Shown here one piece after another: positions 2,591 to 64,000 of a stretch of DNA of 64,000 nt. The DNA lies in the NCBI GenBank assembly GCA_947568835.1, contig OX387602.1, positions 27,021,021 to 27,085,020 of the forward strand. The letters are read 5' to 3'. The translations under genes and the position numbers were made by a program. The stretch's first letter is position 1. Every line of letters begins with the position of its first letter. The notes below the pieces were generated by a model, which did not search any database, was not told the DNA's origin, and worked only from the letters and a program-made list of their open reading frames with translations. The DNA is from Protonemura montana. Taxonomy: Eukaryota; Arthropoda; Insecta; Plecoptera; Nemouridae.

Positions 2591-5500
2591 TCATTCCTTA
2601 AATATTTCCCTAGCACTAAAACTTGAATTGCTGCCTGATTTTGCATTCTGTGCTTCTTGAAATGAAGAAGCCAAGCTTTTTACAGGTTCTTTTTTTTCTT
2701 CCTGAGTAATATTCCATCGCTCTCTTGCAAGTATTCCTTCTGCTGTTATCTTTTCCAGTGCTGCATCATAAATTTCCTGTTGCATCAAATTCCCTTCCTC
2801 TGCCAGCTTGTTGCAGGCGCTGAGAAATTTCTGAGTTGCAGTTTGCGTTTTAAAATCATTCAAATTGATTGTACCAATGCTTGTGTTTCTCTTGTGAAAC
2901 CATCTGAAAAAATCAAAAGTACCAGCTATACATTTAGGGGCCAGTGATAACTACCTCTATGTAAAATAACATTTTAATGAAAGGTTTTCAAATGTTGGCA
3001 CAGATTAAAGAGTATTCAGATTTTTCATATCCATGTTTAACTCGGGGCGCGCAATGGAGGCTGCCATTGGCCAAGTTTCGCATCTTGTTGTGTCATACGC
3101 TAATCTTGCACGGTCGCAAGATCACTGCACACGGGTAACCTAGTGGGGTAAATGGAAACTTCTAGCAATTCAATCGATTTGAAACAATCGTTAACTAACC
3201 GCATTTGCGACAGATGCAGCGTTGCAATTGATTGGGACAAATTGACTCGGGCACATGACAAGTCACTACGTGTTGTGGGTCTAAAACTCCTTCTCATAAA
3301 GCTGTTTTGTTATCAGTAGCGGGCTTGCTCAGTAAAATATCTTTCCAGGTCATTCCAATTGTAAAAAATATGTCATTTTGATGATACAAGAAAAACTCAA
3401 AAACTTCCTTTGTTGTCTTTTCACAAAACACACTTCTCTGTTACTACTATTCCAATATCAAGAAAAAGAAGTTTTCTTAACTCAGCTTTATCTTCTAACC
3501 ATTAATGGTTTTTTTTTATCTCCCAAACAAGGTAGTCGATCGACCAAACTCCCGACCTTTTTGGTGGGTGACTTGTCCAGGCAAGTCGGAAATAACAAGT
3601 ATGGGAAATAAGCTAAGTACCAATGTCGATTGTGGTGCAGCAGCAAAGATTTCAATGGCCAAAACAGCAACCAAAGTATCACGAGGACATGCAGATATGC
3701 TGCCATCGTAACGTAAAATGACACGCTTACAAACGTAAAGCTTGTCGCTGTGTATTTGATGCATTTTTTATGGCAAGACGCCACTGATTAGGCAACTGGC
3801 TTGTTTTTAGGCAAGCGCATGGCATGTGCTCGGTACCTATCTCTCCTAACAAAATGAATGTGTTCTCTACCTGTCATCAAAATTAAAACTATGATAGTGA
3901 AGGTCTGGTGATTACACAAATCGATTAAGAGTACATGATATTGCAACATTATACATATGCAAATCAGAATAAGTCACTAGTAATTAAACAACGCGGGTTT
4001 TCGATGACCGATTTGAATTGACTACATTGCAAGAAGTTTCAATTTCCTCCTTAGGGTAACCGTGTGCAGCGAGAGTGAGACTAGCGTTGGGACTCAACAT
4101 GATGCGGAACTTGGCCAATGGCAGGACTCCACTTCGCGCCATACGTTTAACATAGACTAAAAATATCTGTACCGTATTAATTTATCATGGCAGTAAACGC
4201 TGCTAAAAAATCAAGGCTTACGCTCTGGCTTCGTCTTCAGGGTAGAAAATGTTCCTCACAGGAATGTTTGGTACTGGGCGGTCGTATTTGGGCTCATATT
4301 GTGGAGGGAAAGCTTTGTAGACATTATACCAAATAGGAGTATCTTCTTGCTTCATAGCACCAGACCTCAATAGACCAGTTAGCCTGAAATAAAACATGCC
4401 AGAAGGTAAAGTTTTCATTTGGAACCGATTCAATTAAAAACTATAAAATCATCAATCGATGTTTTAATTTTACGATACTCTGCTGTTTTCATGTGGTGCA
4501 CTGAAGTGCACTTTGAAAGAGAGAAGACCCGGTGTTTTAATAGCCCCCATGAAATGTAAATTATAAAAGCAACATTTTAAATCATAGAAGTTTGTAACTA
4601 GTTAAGCCTTTTAAATTACATTCAGGGGTCAGAATCAGAATAATCTGCGTTGAAATAAAAATAATCCGTATCTTTTGGAATTGGTATTTTTGTTGTCAGC
4701 CAGCTAGTATATTGGAATTTTTGTTCTAGAATGAAATTTTTAATTTTAAGCTGTTGGATCAGTTGTTGTAAATTGTCTAACATAAGGCCACACACGCAAA
4801 TGTTCTTATATCTCGAGATATCGTGTGATCCTTTCAGCAGTCAGCATTAGAATATGAATCGGAAAATCAGAACTGAAATTAGAGGTGGTCACCTGCGTGA
4901 AAACCCATTCATGCCAGGTTACGACTCATGAACATTTGTTTTTGTCACGCATGCAATTTCTTAGCAATTCACACTCACGCACAATAAAATTTCATAAAAT
5001 TTTTAAAATAACAGTCATAACCATTGACGTCACTAATGGTGCTTCGTGTAAATAAAAAAACAAAATCTTGTCTACTGATACTATTTGAAAATATACTTAG
5101 ACAAGTACACCAAAAACAACATCTTAATGCAAAAACTGATTGATAACCATTAAGCAGTGTCAGAACTTTATTTCGAAAGCTTGCCAACCAATTTTTATGA
5201 TCTCCATCTTAGCTGAATGTTGTTCACTTTGTAAGAATTTGATTCAGGGCCATCCTCACCATGTGACACATGCGATTCACGCGTTAATGAATGCCCTGCA
5301 CGATTAAGGTGCGTGCACATTCACACTTAATGTCGTAAATCACGCAACCACCTCTAACTGGACTAGCAGGCTGAAATCGGAACCAAAAGCTTAGCCAAAC
5401 AATAAAATTAACAAAACAAGAATAAAACCAAGTTTACATTGATCAAGACCTTGATCAATGTCTTGAGCTCAAGATCTGCACTTCAAGGAGTTGATCAACA

Positions 5501-37655: not shown

Positions 37656-50538
<12,883 letters not shown>

Positions 50539-51741: not shown

Positions 51742-52165
51742 TATTACCGAACGGTTTGGCAAATTGGAAACACCGGTTCTCGTGAGTTCACTGAAGTTAA
51801 GCAACACTGCACTGAGTCGGGTATTGGATGGGTGTCCATCATACACATGACCAGTTCGGTTTGGGAGAAAGGTAGAAGGGATGTTAGTTAGTGCAGCAAG
51901 TTCACTCGCCTTGCTTATCAACTTCTCGACAGCATGGATTTGTGGGAATCCTGATTTTCGCGTTGTACCGTCCTTCAGAAGGGACGTTAAGCCGGTGGTC
52001 CTTTAGATGCTATTTGATAGGAGTAGACTACGTGCTGGCACTGGGTTTCCCCTCCTCCCTTCTATGCTAGGTCAGGTTTATCATCATCCTCATAAATCAT
52101 AATCATTAGCTCATTCACCGACGCCATTAGACCAGGGCCAGTTGTCAAAACAGTGCCCCAATAAT
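51742..52165 (+). mobile_element. 5S-like SINE, copy b (longest)
   Basis: Head: GAAACACCGGTTCTCGTGAG, GTTAAGCAACACTGC and GGGTATTGGATGGGTGTCC in the order and spacing of a 5S rRNA internal promoter (box A AGTTAAGC, box C TGGATGGG). Body and tail follow: TACACATGACCAGTTCGG, TTCAGAAGGGACGTTAAGCC and a 3' region to about 52165 with CATCATCCTCATAAATCA. No coding frame. This is the SINE3 class layout (5S-derived head, LINE-derived tail). Confidence 0.75.
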
Positions 52166-52408: not shown

Positions 52409-52529
52409 TTTTTAGAAAAACTATTTGAACTGGGTTTTGAATGCTAAGTAAAGGGCTACTAAATTTACTAGAAATTTAGTAGCCCTTTACTTAGCATTCA
52501 AAACCCAGTTCGAATAGTTTTTCTAAAAA
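52409..52529. repeat. Near-perfect 58-bp hairpin
   Basis: Left arm 52409-52466 and right arm 52472-52529 are complementary apart from one position (TATTTGAAC against its partner TATTCGAAC), with a 5-base loop ACTAG. The arms include GGGTTTTGAATGCTAAG and GTAAAGGGCTACTAAATTT. The left arm continues directly from the dispersed repeat at 52370-52440. Confidence 0.9.
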
Positions 52530-53982: not shown

Positions 53983-56900
53983 TCAAGCATTTCGCGCGAC
54001 TGGCGACATGTTGAAGTCGTTTTGGCTGGCATTGGCGGACGTGTTGCGCAGCGAGGAGCGTGTTGAGCTAAATACTCGAGTCGATTTGCTCGCAGTGCTG
54101 TACTGTTGCGACTTGCTGTCCGCGGAGTCGCTAAAACGCTTGCGAAGTAGTTTGCGCACCTTGTCCTTCCACACGAAGATGATGAAGATGAGTACGCCCT
54201 GCAGCGTGTTGCCCATGTCGGTGACGAACCAGATGTATTCGGGCCCGCCCACAGCCCAGGAAATCACCTCCATCACCCAGTTGACACCCATTACCACAAA
54301 CAGCTTCAGGTAGAGACTGAATCTGAAATTAAATTTTCGGTTTTAGGAGTTGGGAAGCGTTCATGCATCTTAACGAACCAAGTTACAGCTAGCGTTTTGT
54401 GATCACAGTGGGGCTAATTTGAGCTACGTTTGTCAGGTTTTTTTAATAAATTCATTTTTAAGTGTCAAAAACCACTCCCAAGGGGTTGATTGTGTTAAGA
54501 TATCAAATGAGTGATGCCATGTTATCTATGGCATGGCCCAGTTGAAACCCCTTGAAAATGCTATAGAGCAACAAGTTATTGTAAGAAAACTTTTTGACAA
54601 TTTCCACTCTATCGCTCTTCGAAATGCATTACCTTAATCGGAACCTGAGATAAACTACTACATGGACTTGTTTTTGCAGCTACACTAGAGTAACAAGACA
54701 TTTTGAGACAAAGGTGGGCTTAAAAGAAGGTATTTAAAATTCCTACCTCTGGTTGTTATCCTCGTCGTCGTGGCGCTTGCTCTCGGTGCTTGTTTGCAGC
54801 ATCGCTGTCTCCTTCTTGAGCTTAACGATCTTCACCGCAGTTGTGATGAACATGAGCATGTTGGCGGTGAGGATAATGGCCACAGGTCCATAAAAGTAAG
54901 CCCACATCGCACCGGCATTTTCCTCTGAAAGAGTGTATCGAGTTACGCAACACTCTTAACTTAAGAGAGATCTCCACCCCTATGTGAGCAGAGATTCACG
55001 TGGTCAGACTTTTAGGGGTTCAAAATTACCCAAAAATATCTGAAAAAAATCAGTGTATAGAGGAAAAGTGTGTCTGTGGATGAAAAAAACGTAGACGGGG
55101 CGAGGTATTGAAAAAGAGCTAAAATACACATATTTGATGAATTTGTGTGATGACACCATAGGTTCAATTAAAATAATGAAAGGGTGGCAAACATGCCCGC
55201 AGTCTCCCTATGCACTATTTTTCTTTTTAGATTATTTTGAACAAGTTTAGACCCCCAAACGTTTGACTGCGTAAGGGTGTGCATGCTCAGTTTTGTATAG
55301 AAACCGGGCTGCTTAGTCTGAAAACCGAACGGTTTGGCGTGTTGGAAACACCGGTTCTCATGAGATCACCAAAGTTAAGCAACACTACGCTGAGTTAGGT
55401 ATTGGGTGGGTGACCATCATACATATGACCAGTTCTGTTCGGCATAGGTTGGAGGGATGAAAGTTAGTACAACAACTTCATTCGCCTCCGGGCGAGGGGT
55501 CCACGGAAGAAAACAATTTGGGAACCTACGGCCTGAATGGTCCTCATATGATATATATATTTTTTTTATTTCTTTTGGAAAATATCTCGTAGTAAGCGGT
55601 TAGTGTAACAACTAACAAGAAAAAATTTGAATTTCTAAAGTCTTGCTTTTTCCAGCAAAATGTTTTAAAAGAGTTTCGCGTGCATGACCTTAAGCCAAGA
55701 AAAACTAATTTATGCTGATGCCTCTTGTGCGTGTGAGAAGAGTCTGAGGTATTTCGAGCTCATATTCCTGAGTGTATGAATTGAAATGGTTCCAGAATCC
55801 AGATCATTATAGTGGCTTCTGCTGAGGAATAATCCTCTCGGGAGGGTGATCGGTTGGGTGTGGCACGTTACTGTCAGCATTCACATAGAGTTTATTCAAA
55901 TTGGTTATCGCGTTTCGTGTTAGACCGCTATGTTCACATGTTTTGGCTAGTTGTATATTTAGAAGGTAGCAACGTCATATAGGGACCGACAACGATCCCA
56001 TTAAAATTGCGCTTATCATGTAGTTAAGCCGGCCTTTATCGTGACCCTCGTCATATATATTTAGACCCGTTTTGACCGTATTAACCTTTTTAATCATTTC
56101 TTCGTAATGTGACTTTTTTTAAATATTTCATTGCGCTCTATTTCAAGCGGGTAAAACTAGCTTTCTTTCAACTGGACCATGTTCCTTTTAAACGCCACTA
56201 ATAACTGCAGGTAAATTCAGTTAATTGCACTCTCCCTCCCCCAACACTCCTTCCACAAACACTTCGTGCCCGATTAGATTATTTTATTTGACAATTGAGT
56301 TAGCTATCTCTCGTTTATTTCAAGTTTCAGCATTTCAGGAAAAAGTAAGCATGAGTGTCATGTCATTGTATTATCATTGTGTATTTTCACAGTCTATTTC
56401 TTAATCTTCGGCATTAACCAATGTCTGGTCAAGCGTATTTTAGAACATCTGTTTGCACCTTCTGAACCAATCGAATGTGATAGAATGTATGAATTGTTAC
56501 TTATTGTATTAATATATGCATTAGTATGAACACTTAGATAAACCTGAAACAGGGGCGAGACCCGACAGGAGGCTAAATTGGCCAGAATACTGCTGATCCC
56601 AGTTTGGGTGCGGTACTATCTCTTTGATCAGCATGACAAACCACGTTCACTGTGTGACCTTGTTTGAATACTTTGCTACTACTTTTGAGGAGCATATCTA
56701 AACGTCAAGGGGTTCCCATGATTCATTTATATGATGAGTAAATGTTTTGACGCACTGTTTTGAAAACTGACACTCGGGCACTCAGGCACTGAAGGCGTCA
56801 GTGATGATGGACAGACATGAGTCTAGGTGATGACGATTAACCTAACCTAGCCTAAAAGGGAGGAGAGGAAACTCGGTATCCGCACGTAGCATACTATTGT

Positions 56901-59900
56901 CGAAGAGCACCAAGAGGATCACCGGCTTAACGTCCCTTCGAAATGGACGACATGATTTCTTCACAAATCCATGCTTGGTAATCAAGGCGAATGAAGTTTA
57001 TGCATTTCCATCCCTCGAATCTCCCTCCCGAACAGAGCTGGTCATGTGTATAATGGTCACCCATCCAATACCTGACCGACCGGTTTGATATGGTTCCCAT
57101 TTCACACTGCAAAGTACGCAACAAGAAAAAAACTGAACCTAGTATTGCTTACTCTGGAACCAGCAGCGACCGTTGCCGAACTGGGGCTTTGCGTATTCGT
57201 CGGAGATGTTTGGCGACAAGTCCATGACCATGGTGACAATCAGGATGATCAGCGGACAGCCCCACGAGTACATCGAGTAGATGATGAACTTCTTGTGATC
57301 CCTCTCACGCACAGACCCTCGCATGGGCCGGCAACCGCTGCGGGGAAATCGGAAAATTTAAGTCTCAGAGAAAATATTTGCACGTGTCTTTTGAAGAATG
57401 TTGTGTGTTGAGTGTGTAAGCACATCGTAAAACTACTTAAATGGACTAAATTATAATTTCGTAACATTCTTGACTTGACAAACCATAAGAACTGTATGCA
57501 CGTCCTAGTTAGAACTGTGCCCGATGTAAAGTCGGATAAGGAAATATCTAGGGGTAAATCTAGATGCTAGATAAACTGATACCTGTGCGTGGCATGGATT
57601 GCGAGTGCAGCATGGGAGTTGGCATGGGTGCGCAAGGCTCAAATTGTGTCGCGCACAGGCGAATAACACAAACTCACAATTCATCGAACTAGAAGAACTC
57701 AGGATTTCTGTGTCCACCCCCAAATCTGCTTTTCTATCGGATTTGATACAGGCAGCTCATTCAAATATAAAACCTTTGATTGTTCGTTAGATGTGGTTTC
57801 ACGGTGGTGGACACATTATTTTGGGGTGTGAAATCGACCCCCTCCCCATCCCGTTGTGACGCCAATGCTCCAAATATACGTCATTCGAAATGACATCATC
57901 TTTGGACATGCCAATTTGGCAAGGTGCGTAAAGTGTGCTGATCGAGATCCAATGGTTTATCTATGAGGAAAGCGAGCGCTTTGCGCTTGATTATGTTCGG
58001 CAAATATTTGTTTTTTGAACACGTCCTTGATTAGTTGGGTTAGGTTGACTATGGTTCAGAGCGTCGAAATTACCACGACTTTCCTGTCGGTGTCTGTTTT
58101 ATGGTTTTGTCGTTCGAGTCGCGACAAGCCTTGTTTTTACGTCTTCGGGCACGTTCAAATATGAACGTTGGACGTGTGTCAACATCTATTTGCACTCAAT
58201 TCTTCGAATGTGACCCGAATCGATGACGCCAATTCTTTGAAAGGAAATACAGAAACGATGCTAACCATGTGCATGGTTTTAAATCTTGTGCCTGATTAAC
58301 ATTCAAGCAATCGCTTCAAACTCCCGTGAGACAAAAGTGACATATTTGCTTTATGATTGCTATCCATATTAACAGATTAAAAATCATAATGCAAGGTAGC
58401 GAATTAATTTGTTAAATGCAACTACATTCCGAGCTCTATGCTGACATACAACTTCATATTTATCCGCTAATTAATCTCCAATTCCAAAGTAGGTAACATA
58501 CACGACGTTGCTGTAATGTCAGTGCGTCTAGGAGTAATTACGCTAATTGTCTGATAATTACGCTTATGCTTCTCGTGAATCTGCCATCATTTGAAAGATA
58601 TTTGATATACAGAAAGTAATGACTAACCGCGATATCCGGCTGTTTTGCGGTCTATTCATCAGCACTCAAAACCATACTAATCAGACTAATCACAAGTCAC
58701 AACGGAACAAAAGGCACATTAAATTAGTCTCAAGTTTCAGTTCGGCATTATCAAATAGCAAACCACAATTTTTAATGAATACAAAGCATCGGGTCTTGCT
58801 GCATAACGTTTTCGGATGAAATCGTGAAGGACCATCCCGAGCATTTTAAGCAAAATAAAGACGTACATGGGCGCGACACTAGAAATAAGAACAACCTGCG
58901 TCCAGGAAACTGTAAAAGCACCATCGGGAGTCGAGACGCGCATCACATGGGGCCTGTCCTTTACAACAGCCTGCCTCATTGTCTGAAGAATGAAGATATC
59001 AAAAGGTCCGATTTTAAAACTAAGGTCAAATGCTTTTTAATCCTGCATTGTTTTTATAGCATAGACGAGTTTTTAAATAGGGGCATGTGCACTTTTAAAT
59101 GTATATACTGTTTGGGGAAATAGTTCTAATATAGGTTTTATTTTTTGACGAACTTCTATGCTCGCAAGATAATGTTTTACTTTACCTTATTGAAAAACTT
59201 AGTACTTGCCTTAAAGAGCGTGTATGTAATTATGTACAATGAATGTGATATTAATAAATAAAAAAAAAAATCATCTAAACTTAATAAACAGTGTGCACAT
59301 ACTCATGCAGAGACAAATTAGGAGTAGGTACACCCTTATCCAGCTACAAGTACTTTCAGAAGAGGCTCGCAACTCCGGTGCATTAAACGTGCACCCAATT
59401 ATATCATCCTTTGCTTACAACTACAAAGTAGGATACTCTAAGCAATTAATTCATCCATACAGAAAGTATTTGTGCGTATCGTTCCTGGCACGATATGGTG
59501 AGATATGTAAGCAGATGTGGGTAGGGTTGTTAATTTTCTTGTGAACCATGTGATCCAATGAGTATTTGAGTTGGATGTCGCCTCACCTGAACGTCCACCA
59601 CAGGTCAAAGCACATGATGTTCAGCCAAAAGAAGCTCGCGAGAAACGAGAACTGAATGATGAATGCTAAAACACACAAACAAAAAACAGATTGATATCGT
59701 CTTTCTTAGACAAACTTAGCTTAACGCCACGTGACTGGAAGGAAACCCCTTCACAAACATTCGAACAAGTGGTTGGACGAAAATACGTTGGTCCAATTTA
59801 AAAAAATAGCCAAAAATTAGATTGTTGGGTTTTTATTTGGTTAACGTTCAATCGGAAAGTATCGTTTCGAACTTCGATCACATATTACTCAGCACTGAAA

Positions 59901-62900
59901 TAGGTCAGAGCTGTGGAGATCCTAGATTTTTGTAGTGAGATATTGAATTTGTTGTCAAGATAGGTATTCATAATTTCATATCTCTTATTGGTGCCGCTTC
60001 GTGTGTCAAATGATAAATCTTGAATCAATAAAGAAAATATACGTTTGCTCAACACAATATTGGTCGTACCCAGATATTGGCAAATAGATAAGATTGTACA
60101 TTATATTGATAAAGGTGCATTTCTTGGTAAGAAACATAGGACATGTGCTTATAACATTCACTATTTGCTGTTGCAACGTCTACAAACTCAAATAATAATA
60201 CGGTCTAACGAGGCCTACATGGTCTAACCACACGCTGTCATGTCACTTTGTGTCCAAATACTGCTCGCGAAATTTCCCATGTGGCGTCTCATCCATTCCT
60301 CGTCGTTACAACAATTGACTGTGTTTATTTTCCCAGCTCTTTCCCGCTGCTTTCTCATGGAGGAAATTAAATTAAAGGATGTTTACAAAGATCTGACAAG
60401 CTCGCCGGGGAATCTTTTTGTATCAACTCTAAAGAAACAGTTGTTCAAATAATGGGGAAATAAAGACTCATATGTTGCATTTCACTCCGAAATAAAGAAG
60501 ATTGTTCTGCGTTGTGGCGCAGGCTATCAGAGACAGCGCTCCGTCAATTGCTGATTAGCCACATGTTGATGAGATGTCCAAATAAACAAGCATCCACTGC
60601 TTTCGTCTTCATCGATTGACAATCTGCAAACACTCCGCCAGTGCCATCATGCCATCGTGAAAGATTTAATTCTGAAAGATTTAGGGGTTTAGCAATCCCA
60701 CTCTTTTTTGGCCGCTCGGGAATGCATAAGTAATATGCACATCGCCCCGTCTTCACATTCGGTAACAATGGCAGGGAGTCGTACGGTAGTTGATTGGGGT
60801 TTACTTCCCTATCTAATTTAGGACATCTCCTTTATAGGAGTGGGTTTAATAACCATCCATGGGGCTCTCAACTTCGACATCCAATTGTTTGAAACGGGCG
60901 CGTGGGAGGGCAGAGACCGCATGCGAGTCGTCCTAACCGCAGTAAGAAAAAGCAACGTCGTTTTCACTTTTCAATTTCAACCGTCTTTTATGCAGCTCGC
61001 ATTGCAGCATGCCGCCGCATACTGATGGCATTTGACAAAACCGAACAGCATCGTCATTCTAACCGCGCTTACAGCTCACTACTCTTATGTCAAACTTGCT
61101 AGTTTGACTAAACAAACTTACCGCACGCAATGCAGAATTCCATGGATATACTATTGGTGCCCAACTGAACGATCGCCAGGAACAAATAAGCCACGATCAA
61201 ACTCAAGACATGGCTCATCAGACTTTTCCCGTGGAGATTCCGCAGCTCAGGAATGATCGCATAGACGACGAACGTGGCGATGAGGAAGGGTTCCGACACC
61301 AGCATCCCAAGCGGGTACAAAATACCAGAAGCGACGTTAACGTGTGGCGTCTCGATTCCTTCGGGGAAGCAATGAAATGGCACGATATCGACATTGTCAG
61401 GGTCATTGATCACCAATTCATGGCAGTAAGATGCCGGACTTGCCGTAATATTGCTGGCTTCGATCATTATGTGTAAATACCCTTTTTTGTCGATGACGAA
61501 ATTGTCCGTAGGTTCCAACATGTATTTACCATGTTTACACGAGTCTCCGTAAAGAATATGGAAGGAAGGATATTCTTCGGTTACCCCTAGGTCGCTAATA
61601 TTTGGGCGAAACGGGTCAAGCATCGAATGATTCGAATACACACAACCACTTCCTGTCATGTCAATTCGATGATCTTTCTGACAACACTTCCTGATGCATT
61701 CTTTCAGTCTACAAACACATCCCCTAAGCACACGCGTCCGGTTTTCTGACTCTTCCTCCCAGAAAAATCCCGGGGGATAGACGATACCGTCATCCGCCAG
61801 AAGGCTGCCATTGGGGAGATGCCGACCTCCTGAAATTTCCATGCTCAGCTCGATTTCACACGGGGCCTGTGTCACGGAGAGGAGATCTGACGAGCACGCC
61901 ACCGGGCACATACAGAGGGAACACAAGAGCGCGACGAGGACGGCGGCGGCGCATCCTTCCATGCTGCAGGATCCACACACGACGAACGCCACAATGCTAC
62001 TGCTCGATAGAGCGAAACTCTCTCCCGCTCATTGTAGAGCGGCCCTTATCGCACAGCCTTGACTGGCAGACTATTGTATGAGGAGATGGTCGCAAATCGC
62101 AAAGCTTACTTGGACAACACCTCCGTTGCTTTCATACCGGTCTGCCTACTTACCTGGATGGCTCGGACGAGCAGTTGGTATCTTCAGTTTGCATTCCATC
62201 TTTTATTACATGTTATTTTGATCGATCGTGTCATTTCCTCAGTCATAATGATGCCGTGGTGCCGACAGCGAGCGGCAAGTAGTGAATGGCATGTAGTGGG
62301 AAACCCTAACAGGCGAGGAAAAGCGCTAACTGGCCAGTGAAAATCACGACCTATGCCAATGTAACGAGACCGCGTGTGAGAGTGTGGGGCGGAGCGCCGG
62401 GGGACTGAACTCACGACCAGCGGACTAGATGGGAAGATCCATAATAGATAGCGTGTAGACAAGTGGACGGGCAGTAAATCGCATAGGCACACCGCGAGCG
62501 TGCCAAAATTCAGCACCCCCTCCTGCTGAGGGGGTATATGTTCATTCACTCAATAGCATGCTGCTTCAAGCTCCATCAGTGCGTCAAGCATATTTTTTCA
62601 GCCTTCAACAAATTATTCGAGTTATGCATTCTATGTTTCTGTAAAACTTAGTATTTTAAAAGTACACATGCAGTGAACTCTACGCTACCGTATTAATAGA
62701 GTTGCGAAAATTCAGAAAAATGTCCTTGGTGTGGGGCTCTCACTAGCCCTGCAGATTCTCGCGATACCATCGAGCGATGTCTGACTTTGCGGGGATGACA
62801 ATTTGCATTCTTAACTCGAATGTCTTTCCGGTAAGCCGAGTGCCAACTTACCCGCGGAAACGCAGAATGCGTTGTTGTCTACGATGTCCAGCTGCACGAT

Positions 62901-63683
62901 GGCTAAGAAGAAGTAGGCGATGAAGATGCTAGTGCAGTGGCTCATCAAGTTCTTGCCGTGGATGTTGCGCAGCTCGGGGACGATGCCATACACGAAGAAG
63001 GTGGCAATGAGGAACGGTTCTGAAATGATCATGCCGATCGCGAACACGGAGTACGTCCAGTGCCTTTCCTCGGGCACCGGCTGCGGGGGAATACATTGCA
63101 GCATAGCTACCCTTGCACTTTCATTCTGGACGACCAAGTCCACGCAAAAGTCGTCTGCAACCGTCTTGTAGGTGAAGTTAGTCTCCTGGTCCAAGTAGTG
63201 CCACTCTCCCTGCTCGTCAACGTGAAAGATCTCTTGGGGACCCAACGGGAACATGCCGATGTTGCCGCACATGTGCCCGAACAACATATGATGCTCGGAA
63301 AATTGCTCATCATCCTGGACTCTAGTCACATTGGCCAGGTGTTCTTGCAGAGCTGGGTGCTTCGTTGACGCACACTCGTAGCCGTTCACTTTGTAGACGT
63401 GGTCGTGAGGACAACACTTTCGTATGCAGCTCTTAACGCGACACACGCAACCACGCGCCACGTTCGGCGATAACGTCTCCCAGTACAGATGTGGCGGGAA
63501 TAGGAGTCCGTCAGTTGACAGGAGACTGCCGTTCTCCAACCGCGTCCCGCCGCGAATTTCGACGGTTGACGCTTCGTTGCAAGGCCTCGTAGGTTCTGTG
63601 GTCCTAGTGGTTTCTTCGTAGGATGCCGTTGACAAGAGCGTTACGATGAGCAGCACGAGGACGGGGTGTCTTCGGCGGAGCAT
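53983..63683 (-). CDS. Methuselah-like family B GPCR with alternative first exons
   Basis: Shared downstream exons: 59665-59587 (TM3, [15 protein letters not shown]), 57337-57153 (intracellular loop 2, TM4, extracellular loop 2), 54924-54747 (TM5, [19 protein letters not shown]) and 54322-53983 (TM6, TM7, Ser/Asn-rich tail ending VARNA). Either of two first exons (63683-62852 or 61992-61122) joins in phase 1. Totals are 1614 nt (537 residues) or 1653 nt (up to 550). Each first exon carries signal peptide, Methuselah ectodomain, TM1 and TM2. The cysteine block GCVCR-K-CIRKCC is diagnostic of the Methuselah ectodomain. Methuselah-type receptors signal at the plasma membrane in stress, ageing and development; the ligand is unknown here. 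Large introns hold two 5S-like SINEs and a LINE fragment. Whether both first exons are used needs transcripts. Confidence 0.88.
55322..55575 (+). mobile_element. 5S-like SINE, copy c
   Basis: GAAACACCGGTTCTCATGAG, AAAGTTAAGCAACACTACG and GGTATTGGGTGGGTGACCAT reproduce the 5S box A and box C spacing. TACATATGACCAGTTCTG and CATTCGCCTCCGGGCGAGG follow. It lies in the intron between the TM4 and TM5 exons of the Methuselah-like gene, on the opposite strand. Confidence 0.75.
55576..56870. other. Intron of the Methuselah-like gene
   Basis: About 1.3 kb between two SINE copies. No gene or further repeat recognised. Confidence 0.5.
56871..57092 (-). mobile_element. 5S-like SINE, copy d (reverse)
   Basis: Read on the minus strand: TATTGGATGGGTGACCATTA, TACACATGACCAGCTCTG, then a tail with AGGGACGTTAAGCCGGTGAT, the same tail block as copy b. 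The 5S box A part of the head is lacking or diverged. Same intron as copy c. Confidence 0.65.
57338..58823. other. Intron between TM3 and TM4 exons, first part
   Basis: About 1.5 kb with no recognised gene, RNA or repeat. A LINE remnant follows at 58824. Confidence 0.45.
58824..59130 (+). mobile_element. LINE ORF2 C-terminal fragment
   Basis: A plus-strand 99-codon frame reads [12 protein letters not shown], then [20 protein letters not shown] and [10 protein letters not shown]. This is the R-(N)-T-R-N-xNL, GxRSxxYxGPxLWNSLP and FKxxLKxxLL ending of non-LTR retrotransposon polymerases. It is 5'-truncated, opposite in direction to the Methuselah-like gene, in its intron. It differs from the LINE end at 9215-9760, so a second LINE lineage is present. 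Confidence 0.65.
59666..61121. other. Intron between the proximal ectodomain exon and the TM3 exon
   Basis: About 1.45 kb. No gene, repeat or RNA recognised. Confidence 0.5.
61122..61992 (-). CDS. Alternative first exon 1b (proximal) of the Methuselah-like gene
   Basis: The open frame starts at 61992 (MAFVVCGSC); a second ATG at 61962 ([19 protein letters not shown]) begins directly with a good signal peptide and is the likelier start. The ectodomain runs from [12 protein letters not shown] through [18 protein letters not shown], with further cysteines and N-glycosylation sites (NRT, NHS, NIS, NIT). TM1 ([19 protein letters not shown]) and TM2 ([16 protein letters not shown]) close the exon. 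It ends TGCG|GTAAGT, phase 1, matching the TM3 exon. Confidence 0.87.
61993..62851. promoter_or_regulatory. Upstream region of exon 1b, with a CpG-rich part
   Basis: About 860 bp between the two first exons. The 62250-62500 part is noticeably richer in C, G and CpG than the surrounding introns, as expected of a separate promoter for exon 1b. No TATA box recognised. The promoter call is positional. Confidence 0.4.
62852..63683 (-). CDS. Alternative first exon 1a (distal) of the Methuselah-like gene
   Basis: Starts [20 protein letters not shown], a clear signal peptide. The ectodomain has [33 protein letters not shown] and several N-glycosylation sites (NGS, NVT, NFT, NES). TM1 is [20 protein letters not shown] and TM2 [16 protein letters not shown]. 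It ends GCGG|GTAAGT, the same phase and protein position as exon 1b. The TM1-TM2 part is close to 1b, while the ectodomain is much more diverged. Confidence 0.87.
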
Positions 63684-64000
63684 GGTCGGTGGACGGCGAG
63701 TGGCCGGCCACTGTGACTCTTCTAGCTCTCGGGGCTAACACCTTGGCCGATCACCCATCCACGAGAGGCGATTGGAGGATAGAGCGCCACACGCGCCGAA
63801 CGCCTCGATGTCACCGGGGCGCCGCTGCTGTGGGTGGAGGGTTGGTCGCGGTGTCGGCGTCGGCGTCTGGAGCAAGCGGCGACCGCAGAAACACTGGCAC
63901 GCTAGGGGACGGACGCGTCAAGGGAAACGCATTTCCGTGGGCCACGTTAGTAAAGGCACTAGATTATAATTAGTAAAACAAATGTTAGCATAATATTTAT
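63684..64000. promoter_or_regulatory. Region upstream of exon 1a, CpG-rich
   Basis: About 280 bp directly before the start codon are rich in CpG, in contrast to the AT-rich surroundings, then AT-rich DNA to the window end. Likely 5' UTR and promoter by position. Confidence 0.4.

Follow-up and report, generated by a model that had tools for sequence, protein, structure and literature searches.

Methuselah receptors influence lifespan and stress resistance in Drosophila, and their ligands are disputed. As described in the available sections of the literature, Drosophila Methuselah/Mthl receptors join a ten-cysteine Methuselah_N ectodomain to a secretin-class 7TM domain (PMC4768249, PMC3655951, PMC3510462). 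According to the accessible text of one review, the cognate ligand of Mth is uncertain and unrelated peptides elicit a response; a second Mth splice variant with a different EC50 is also mentioned (PMC3510462). Large alternative coding first exons are described for Drosophila Gr39a, where, in the portions of the article at hand, any one of several large first exons, each encoding the bulk of the receptor with six TMs, is joined to three small shared 3' exons, the exon copies having arisen via duplication and diverged like genes (PMC2204066). For the chelicerate sDscam genes, the accessible part of the source describes alternative promoters before duplicated 5' cassettes, which widen extracellular diversity (PMC5775551).

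The 64,000-nt stretch of DNA analysed here (hereafter the window; C1:27021021-27085020) contains a Methuselah-family locus in which two large coding exons, distal (D) and proximal (P), are followed by exons E2–E5 (Table 1). We read this locus, with considerable confidence, as a single gene that has two large, alternative coding first exons and one shared core. The same arrangement had been proposed in the original prediction, and it is well supported by the anatomy and by whole-genome comparison.

Table 1. Exons and candidate promoter regions of the Methuselah-family locus (window positions)
Feature	Position	Strand	Content or remarks
Candidate promoter / 5' leader of D	63684..63983	(-)	GC 0.61, CpG o/e 1.19
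Distal first exon D	62852..63683	(-)	Signal peptide, Mth-type ectodomain, TM1, ICL1, TM2
Candidate promoter / 5' leader of P	61963..62262	(-)	GC 0.49, CpG o/e 0.95, close to background; weak candidate
Proximal first exon P	61122..61962	(-)	Modules as in D
Shared exon E2	59587..59665	(-)	TM3; no further E2-type exon found 3' of D or P
Shared exon E3	57153..57337	(-)	ICL2, TM4, ECL2 start
Shared exon E4	54747..54924	(-)	TM5, ICL3 start
Shared exon E5	53983..54322	(-)	TM6, TM7, C-terminal tail, stop

D opens with ATG and has the predicted length of 832 nt, while P measures 841 nt from its ATG; the 871 nt originally given for P would begin at a GTG (61992). Stops in frame precede each ATG, and both exons end, as had been claimed, in the donor G/GTAAGT (exon/intron) in phase 1 at an equal protein position. 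The ectodomains of D (residues 35–208) and P each contain ten cysteines, all of which fall in shared alignment columns when counted by hand. PF06652 (Methuselah_N) scored 46.3 and 35 bits for D and P, respectively (cut-off 21.5), these being the scores of the best partial stretches (profile positions 1–109 and 44–179 of 179), and the top PDB match for both was the Drosophila Mth ectodomain (2pzx, 1fjr; E = 3e-10 and 4e-8). Each first exon encodes, as predicted, a signal peptide, the ectodomain, TM1 and TM2. An AlphaFold2 model of the D exon product, computed from a two-row alignment, had a mean pLDDT of 37.4 and was set aside as a basis for any reading.

The E2–E5 introns are all GT-AG, and E5 ends in TGA. 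Splicing in silico yielded receptors of 537 aa (D and core) and 540 aa (P and core), both open to the stop. On these spliced receptors, Pfam detected Methuselah_N (3.5e-11 and 1.1e-7, respectively) and 7tm_2 (2.5e-20 and 4.6e-20), and PF00002 (secretin-class 7TM) scored 73.2 and 72.4 bits against a cut-off of 20.6. A tblastn search of the window and 40 kb upstream for a second core retrieved this core only, all other matches being weak (best E = 1.0), and no trace of another core was detected in the 889-nt D–P interval (best E = 2.3). The claim of a single downstream TM3–TM7 exon set therefore holds over the window and the 40 kb, and a separate set for D, which had been named as one observation that would speak against a single gene, was found neither in the D–P interval nor in the 40 kb. 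Upstream of the window, in the adjoining 10 kb, all seven frames of at least 110 codons, a size at which small exons would be missed, lie on the other strand; nothing there suggested that D belongs as an internal exon to a gene further upstream. Visual inspection had suggested a P450 and an MSH4-like protein among plus-strand frames upstream, but neither name found support, 4 of 4 frames tried (L034) having no Pfam match at 1e-3. Two 5S-rRNA-like elements, 85% alike, are present on the plus strand at window positions 55325–55443 and 51746–51861 (Rfam, 59 and 43.9 bits), one copy within the E4–E3 intron; they are probably 5S-derived SINEs.

The window's own assembly (258,480,905 bases, 34 contigs) was searched for relatives, with only the best candidates scored, so that the TM1-2 and core tallies below are among the matches listed. 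The Methuselah_N family matched three places: D, P and C1:7377089. P had 16 matches, 15 of them covering TM1-2, and the remaining one (C2:20102540, residues 52–112 only) was dropped from the tally. Each TM1-2 segment was assigned to the closest core that follows it on the same strand. Of the 15 listed, 13 had their own core at 201–2218 nt, whereas D and P alone, at 3327 and 1591 nt, respectively, reached one same core; three of those 13 segments are weak (E = 0.22, 1.28 and 2.4) and credible mainly through the adjoining core, which is partly circular. The core list comprised 17 places, one per locus, out of 73 matches, the others having been set aside by eye as further exons of listed loci or as long-frame, low-identity GPCRs. 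Three of the listed cores (C4:25.38, C2:12.62 and C13:5.01 Mb) had no TM1-2 match. By core-search E-value, the closest core exon elsewhere in the genome was 58% identical and adjoins its own TM1-2. D and P were mutual best genome matches after self (41 and 39%), and D paired with P in a TM1-2 tree of 8 sequences (support 0.77). Relatives were also sought in viral contigs (51 pattern stretches) and in non-animal genome contigs (29), and none was confirmed there.

A phase-1 donor of the form G/GTRAG was present at the corresponding place after TM2 in 5 of 5 paralogs fetched (C1:7.377, C1:7.388, C16:6.443, C1:32.08 and C1:12.68 Mb). The common phase and position in D and P are an inherited old family intron and no special sign, and their equality counts less as evidence because the intron is common to the family. 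First exons of this kind are consequently joinable, in principle, to any core, which makes a two-first-exon arrangement easy to evolve. The paralog ectodomains at C1:7377086, C1:7387672, C16:6442521 and C1:32082565 are longer than those of D and P, with an additional upstream cysteine-rich stretch that resembles a second CC-motif lobe.

The D and P proteins are 38% identical over 274 aligned codons. By NG86, dS was not computable overall and was 2.5 in TM1-2, versus a dN of 0.35, and among 31 fourfold-degenerate codons for identical residues, the third base agreed in 5. Synonymous sites thus look saturated at 38% protein identity, indicating that both exons have long been maintained as coding. 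Both are under long coding constraint, protein constraint having outlasted neutral memory, as two unselected copies of such age would not both have remained open with their ten cysteines. This long constraint on both exons, combined with the lack of another core for D, gives good support to the one-gene, two-first-exon reading. The family includes complete tandem genes (two on C1, at 7.377 and 7.387 Mb, and three on C2 close to 25.1 Mb), and whole-gene duplication followed by deletion would be an easy path to a D that is the dying leftover first exon of a tandem gene, its own core lost only recently. We regard such an orphaned D as very improbable, given its undamaged frame and donor, the absence of a core remnant in the 889-nt interval, and a synonymous saturation implying that D was selected through most of its long life; the date of any recent core loss cannot come from one genome.

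The D–P interval also bears on two other uses of D. The frame read past the D donor meets a stop after 13 codons, and the only AATAAA on the gene strand between D and P (62207) would permit a truncated D transcript; D might then yield its own two-TM product, a membrane-anchored or decoy ectodomain ending within the interval, with the core used by P only. This is unlikely in our judgement: a single AATAAA per 889 nt is near chance, D keeps the family consensus donor and phase, which would be needless in a terminal exon, and its TM1-2 conservation (55%) is as in full receptors. Of the 92 AG sites scanned from the D donor to where P ends, 17 would preserve the reading frame across P to the core. 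Among these, the sites at 61545 and 61359 have 15/20 pyrimidines, matching the count at the E2 acceptor, so a D-to-P splice would be allowed by this crude pyrimidine count. That D is spliced onto P in a single transcript, or serves as a mere leader for P, is nevertheless extremely improbable, as the receptor would carry a second TM1-2 pair, seen at no other locus examined, and the signal peptide and in-frame upstream stop of P would have no use. The rivals account less well for the kept D donor and the long constraint than does the two-first-exon reading.

Because D and P each possess their own signal peptide and start codon, two promoters are the natural reading, and choice of first exon by promoter is likely, if unproven. 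Among 300-nt windows over 104 kb (median CpG o/e 0.76), the 300 nt before D ranked at the 99.5th percentile for GC and the 92nd for CpG o/e, and those before P at the 86th and 73rd, respectively. The CpG-rich DNA predicted before each exon was thus evident at D and hardly so at P. A scan before both ATGs for Inr (TCAKTY), DPE and TATA revealed no convincing core-promoter element; each exon had one Inr-like site, far from the ATG and without a DPE (-444 for P and -396 for D), and the scan was rejected as evidence for or against promoters.

Under the two-first-exon reading, a transcript initiated before D would be spliced from 62852 to 59665, skipping P, and one initiated before P would be spliced from 61122 to 59665. 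Both transcripts would use E2–E5, giving receptors with TM3–TM7 and the cytoplasmic tail in common, and different ectodomains and TM1-2. With this shared part, G-protein coupling is probably common to both receptors. We infer the two junctions, two promoters and two ligands of this gene from sequence. The pair would have arisen through an ancient duplication of exon 1 at this locus, or through a gene duplication with loss of the inner core; afterwards, the ectodomain's most variable part would have diverged, with TM1-2 and the first ectodomain segment held.

The ectodomains had been predicted to be far more diverged than TM1-TM2, which is correct for the whole ectodomain (35 versus 55% identity) and for D residues 96–208 (23%), but not for residues 35–95 (57%). 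Other paralog pairs are 15–26% identical in the C-terminal ectodomain, a range that includes the 23% of D and P. The tandem pair C1:7.377/7.387 Mb, by comparison, shows 40% identity in this part and 56% in TM1-2. TM1-2 identity is equal in the two pairs (38/69 for D/P and 38/68 for the tandem pair), and C-terminal ectodomain identity is lower for D/P (25/110 versus 38/95; Fisher p = 0.0097), the reference being one of 15 pairwise comparisons, chosen as a tandem pair. With the p value resting on one picked pair, this difference is no more than suggestive of special selection, and ectodomain divergence was set aside as a mark of it. Alternatively, the shared core may have slowed TM1-2, D and P being merely older.

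The divergence of the C-terminal ectodomain makes different ligands for the D and P receptors plausible, although unproven. The original prediction had treated it as established that Methuselah ectodomains determine ligand binding; in the accessible review text, which credits Mth with no certain cognate ligand, this stands on weaker ground (PMC3510462). A further proposal, which we advance tentatively as possible rather than probable, is an old, selected GPCR with 'two sensors, one engine', in which the ligand-facing lobes diverged to the family background and TM1-2 were kept matched to one TM3–TM7 core that accepts both.

Several other features were observed in the window and genome. A SNORA36-like H/ACA snoRNA (window 45238–45363, plus strand, 47.3 bits) is flanked on its own strand by PRP8-type coding frames and is thus probably intronic. 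At window positions 52409–52529, two 58-nt arms, 98% complementary and spaced by 5 nt, form a near-perfect palindrome. Nuclear contig C4 carries mitochondrial-like sequence around cox1 (5760925–5762262) and a second partial cox1 ~16 kb away (5776811–5777755). The stretch around cox1 is 99.84% identical to the mitochondrial contig C34 over 4338 nt (7 mismatches), and represents either a very recent large insertion or an assembly artefact. In C34, TGA is read as Trp, and a tRNA-Leu(TAA)-like segment lies between cox1 and cox2, the order typical of insects and crustaceans.

The predicted isoform pair, with identical TM3–TM7 and tail and different ectodomains, would constitute a natural domain-swap experiment, in which any difference in response must stem from the ectodomain or TM1-2. 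As the examined paralogs have the phase-1 intron after TM2, this route to receptor diversity would be open to the whole family. If the 'two sensors, one engine' proposal is true, the locus would be the first case in the Methuselah family, and perhaps among secretin-class receptors, of exon duplication replacing gene duplication for a second ligand specificity.

Variable first exons with their own promoters, spliced to a constant set, are found in vertebrate UGT1A and the clustered protocadherins, which differ from the D/P gene in being enzymes or cadherins with many first exons. The chelicerate sDscam genes, as far as the available text describes them, encode Ig-superfamily adhesion receptors with many cassettes, not GPCRs. 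The D and P receptors resemble Drosophila Methuselah/Mthl in their ten-cysteine Methuselah_N ectodomain and secretin-class 7TM domain, but the accessible portions of the Drosophila sources describe diversity as whole-gene duplication, without a second ectodomain exon (PMC4768249, PMC3655951, PMC3510462). No Methuselah gene with alternative first exons appeared among the matches listed in the literature searched, as far as the text of these sources was available and subscription papers and database annotations aside; a silkworm study (PMC3426547) contains both terms, but in its available text the alternative-first-exon genes CUFF.6110 and CUFF.6350 are not tied to Methuselah. Gr39a, in the available account, likewise places large alternative coding first exons before one shared set of 3' exons, but belongs to a gustatory receptor family without a large N-terminal ectodomain and switches after TM6 rather than after TM2. 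Unlike Gr39a, the D/P gene exchanges a folded extracellular domain together with TM1-2 and keeps TM3–TM7 constant. Judged against the available descriptions, the layout is thus known from Gr39a, and what is new here is the Methuselah receptor family and the cut point after TM2.
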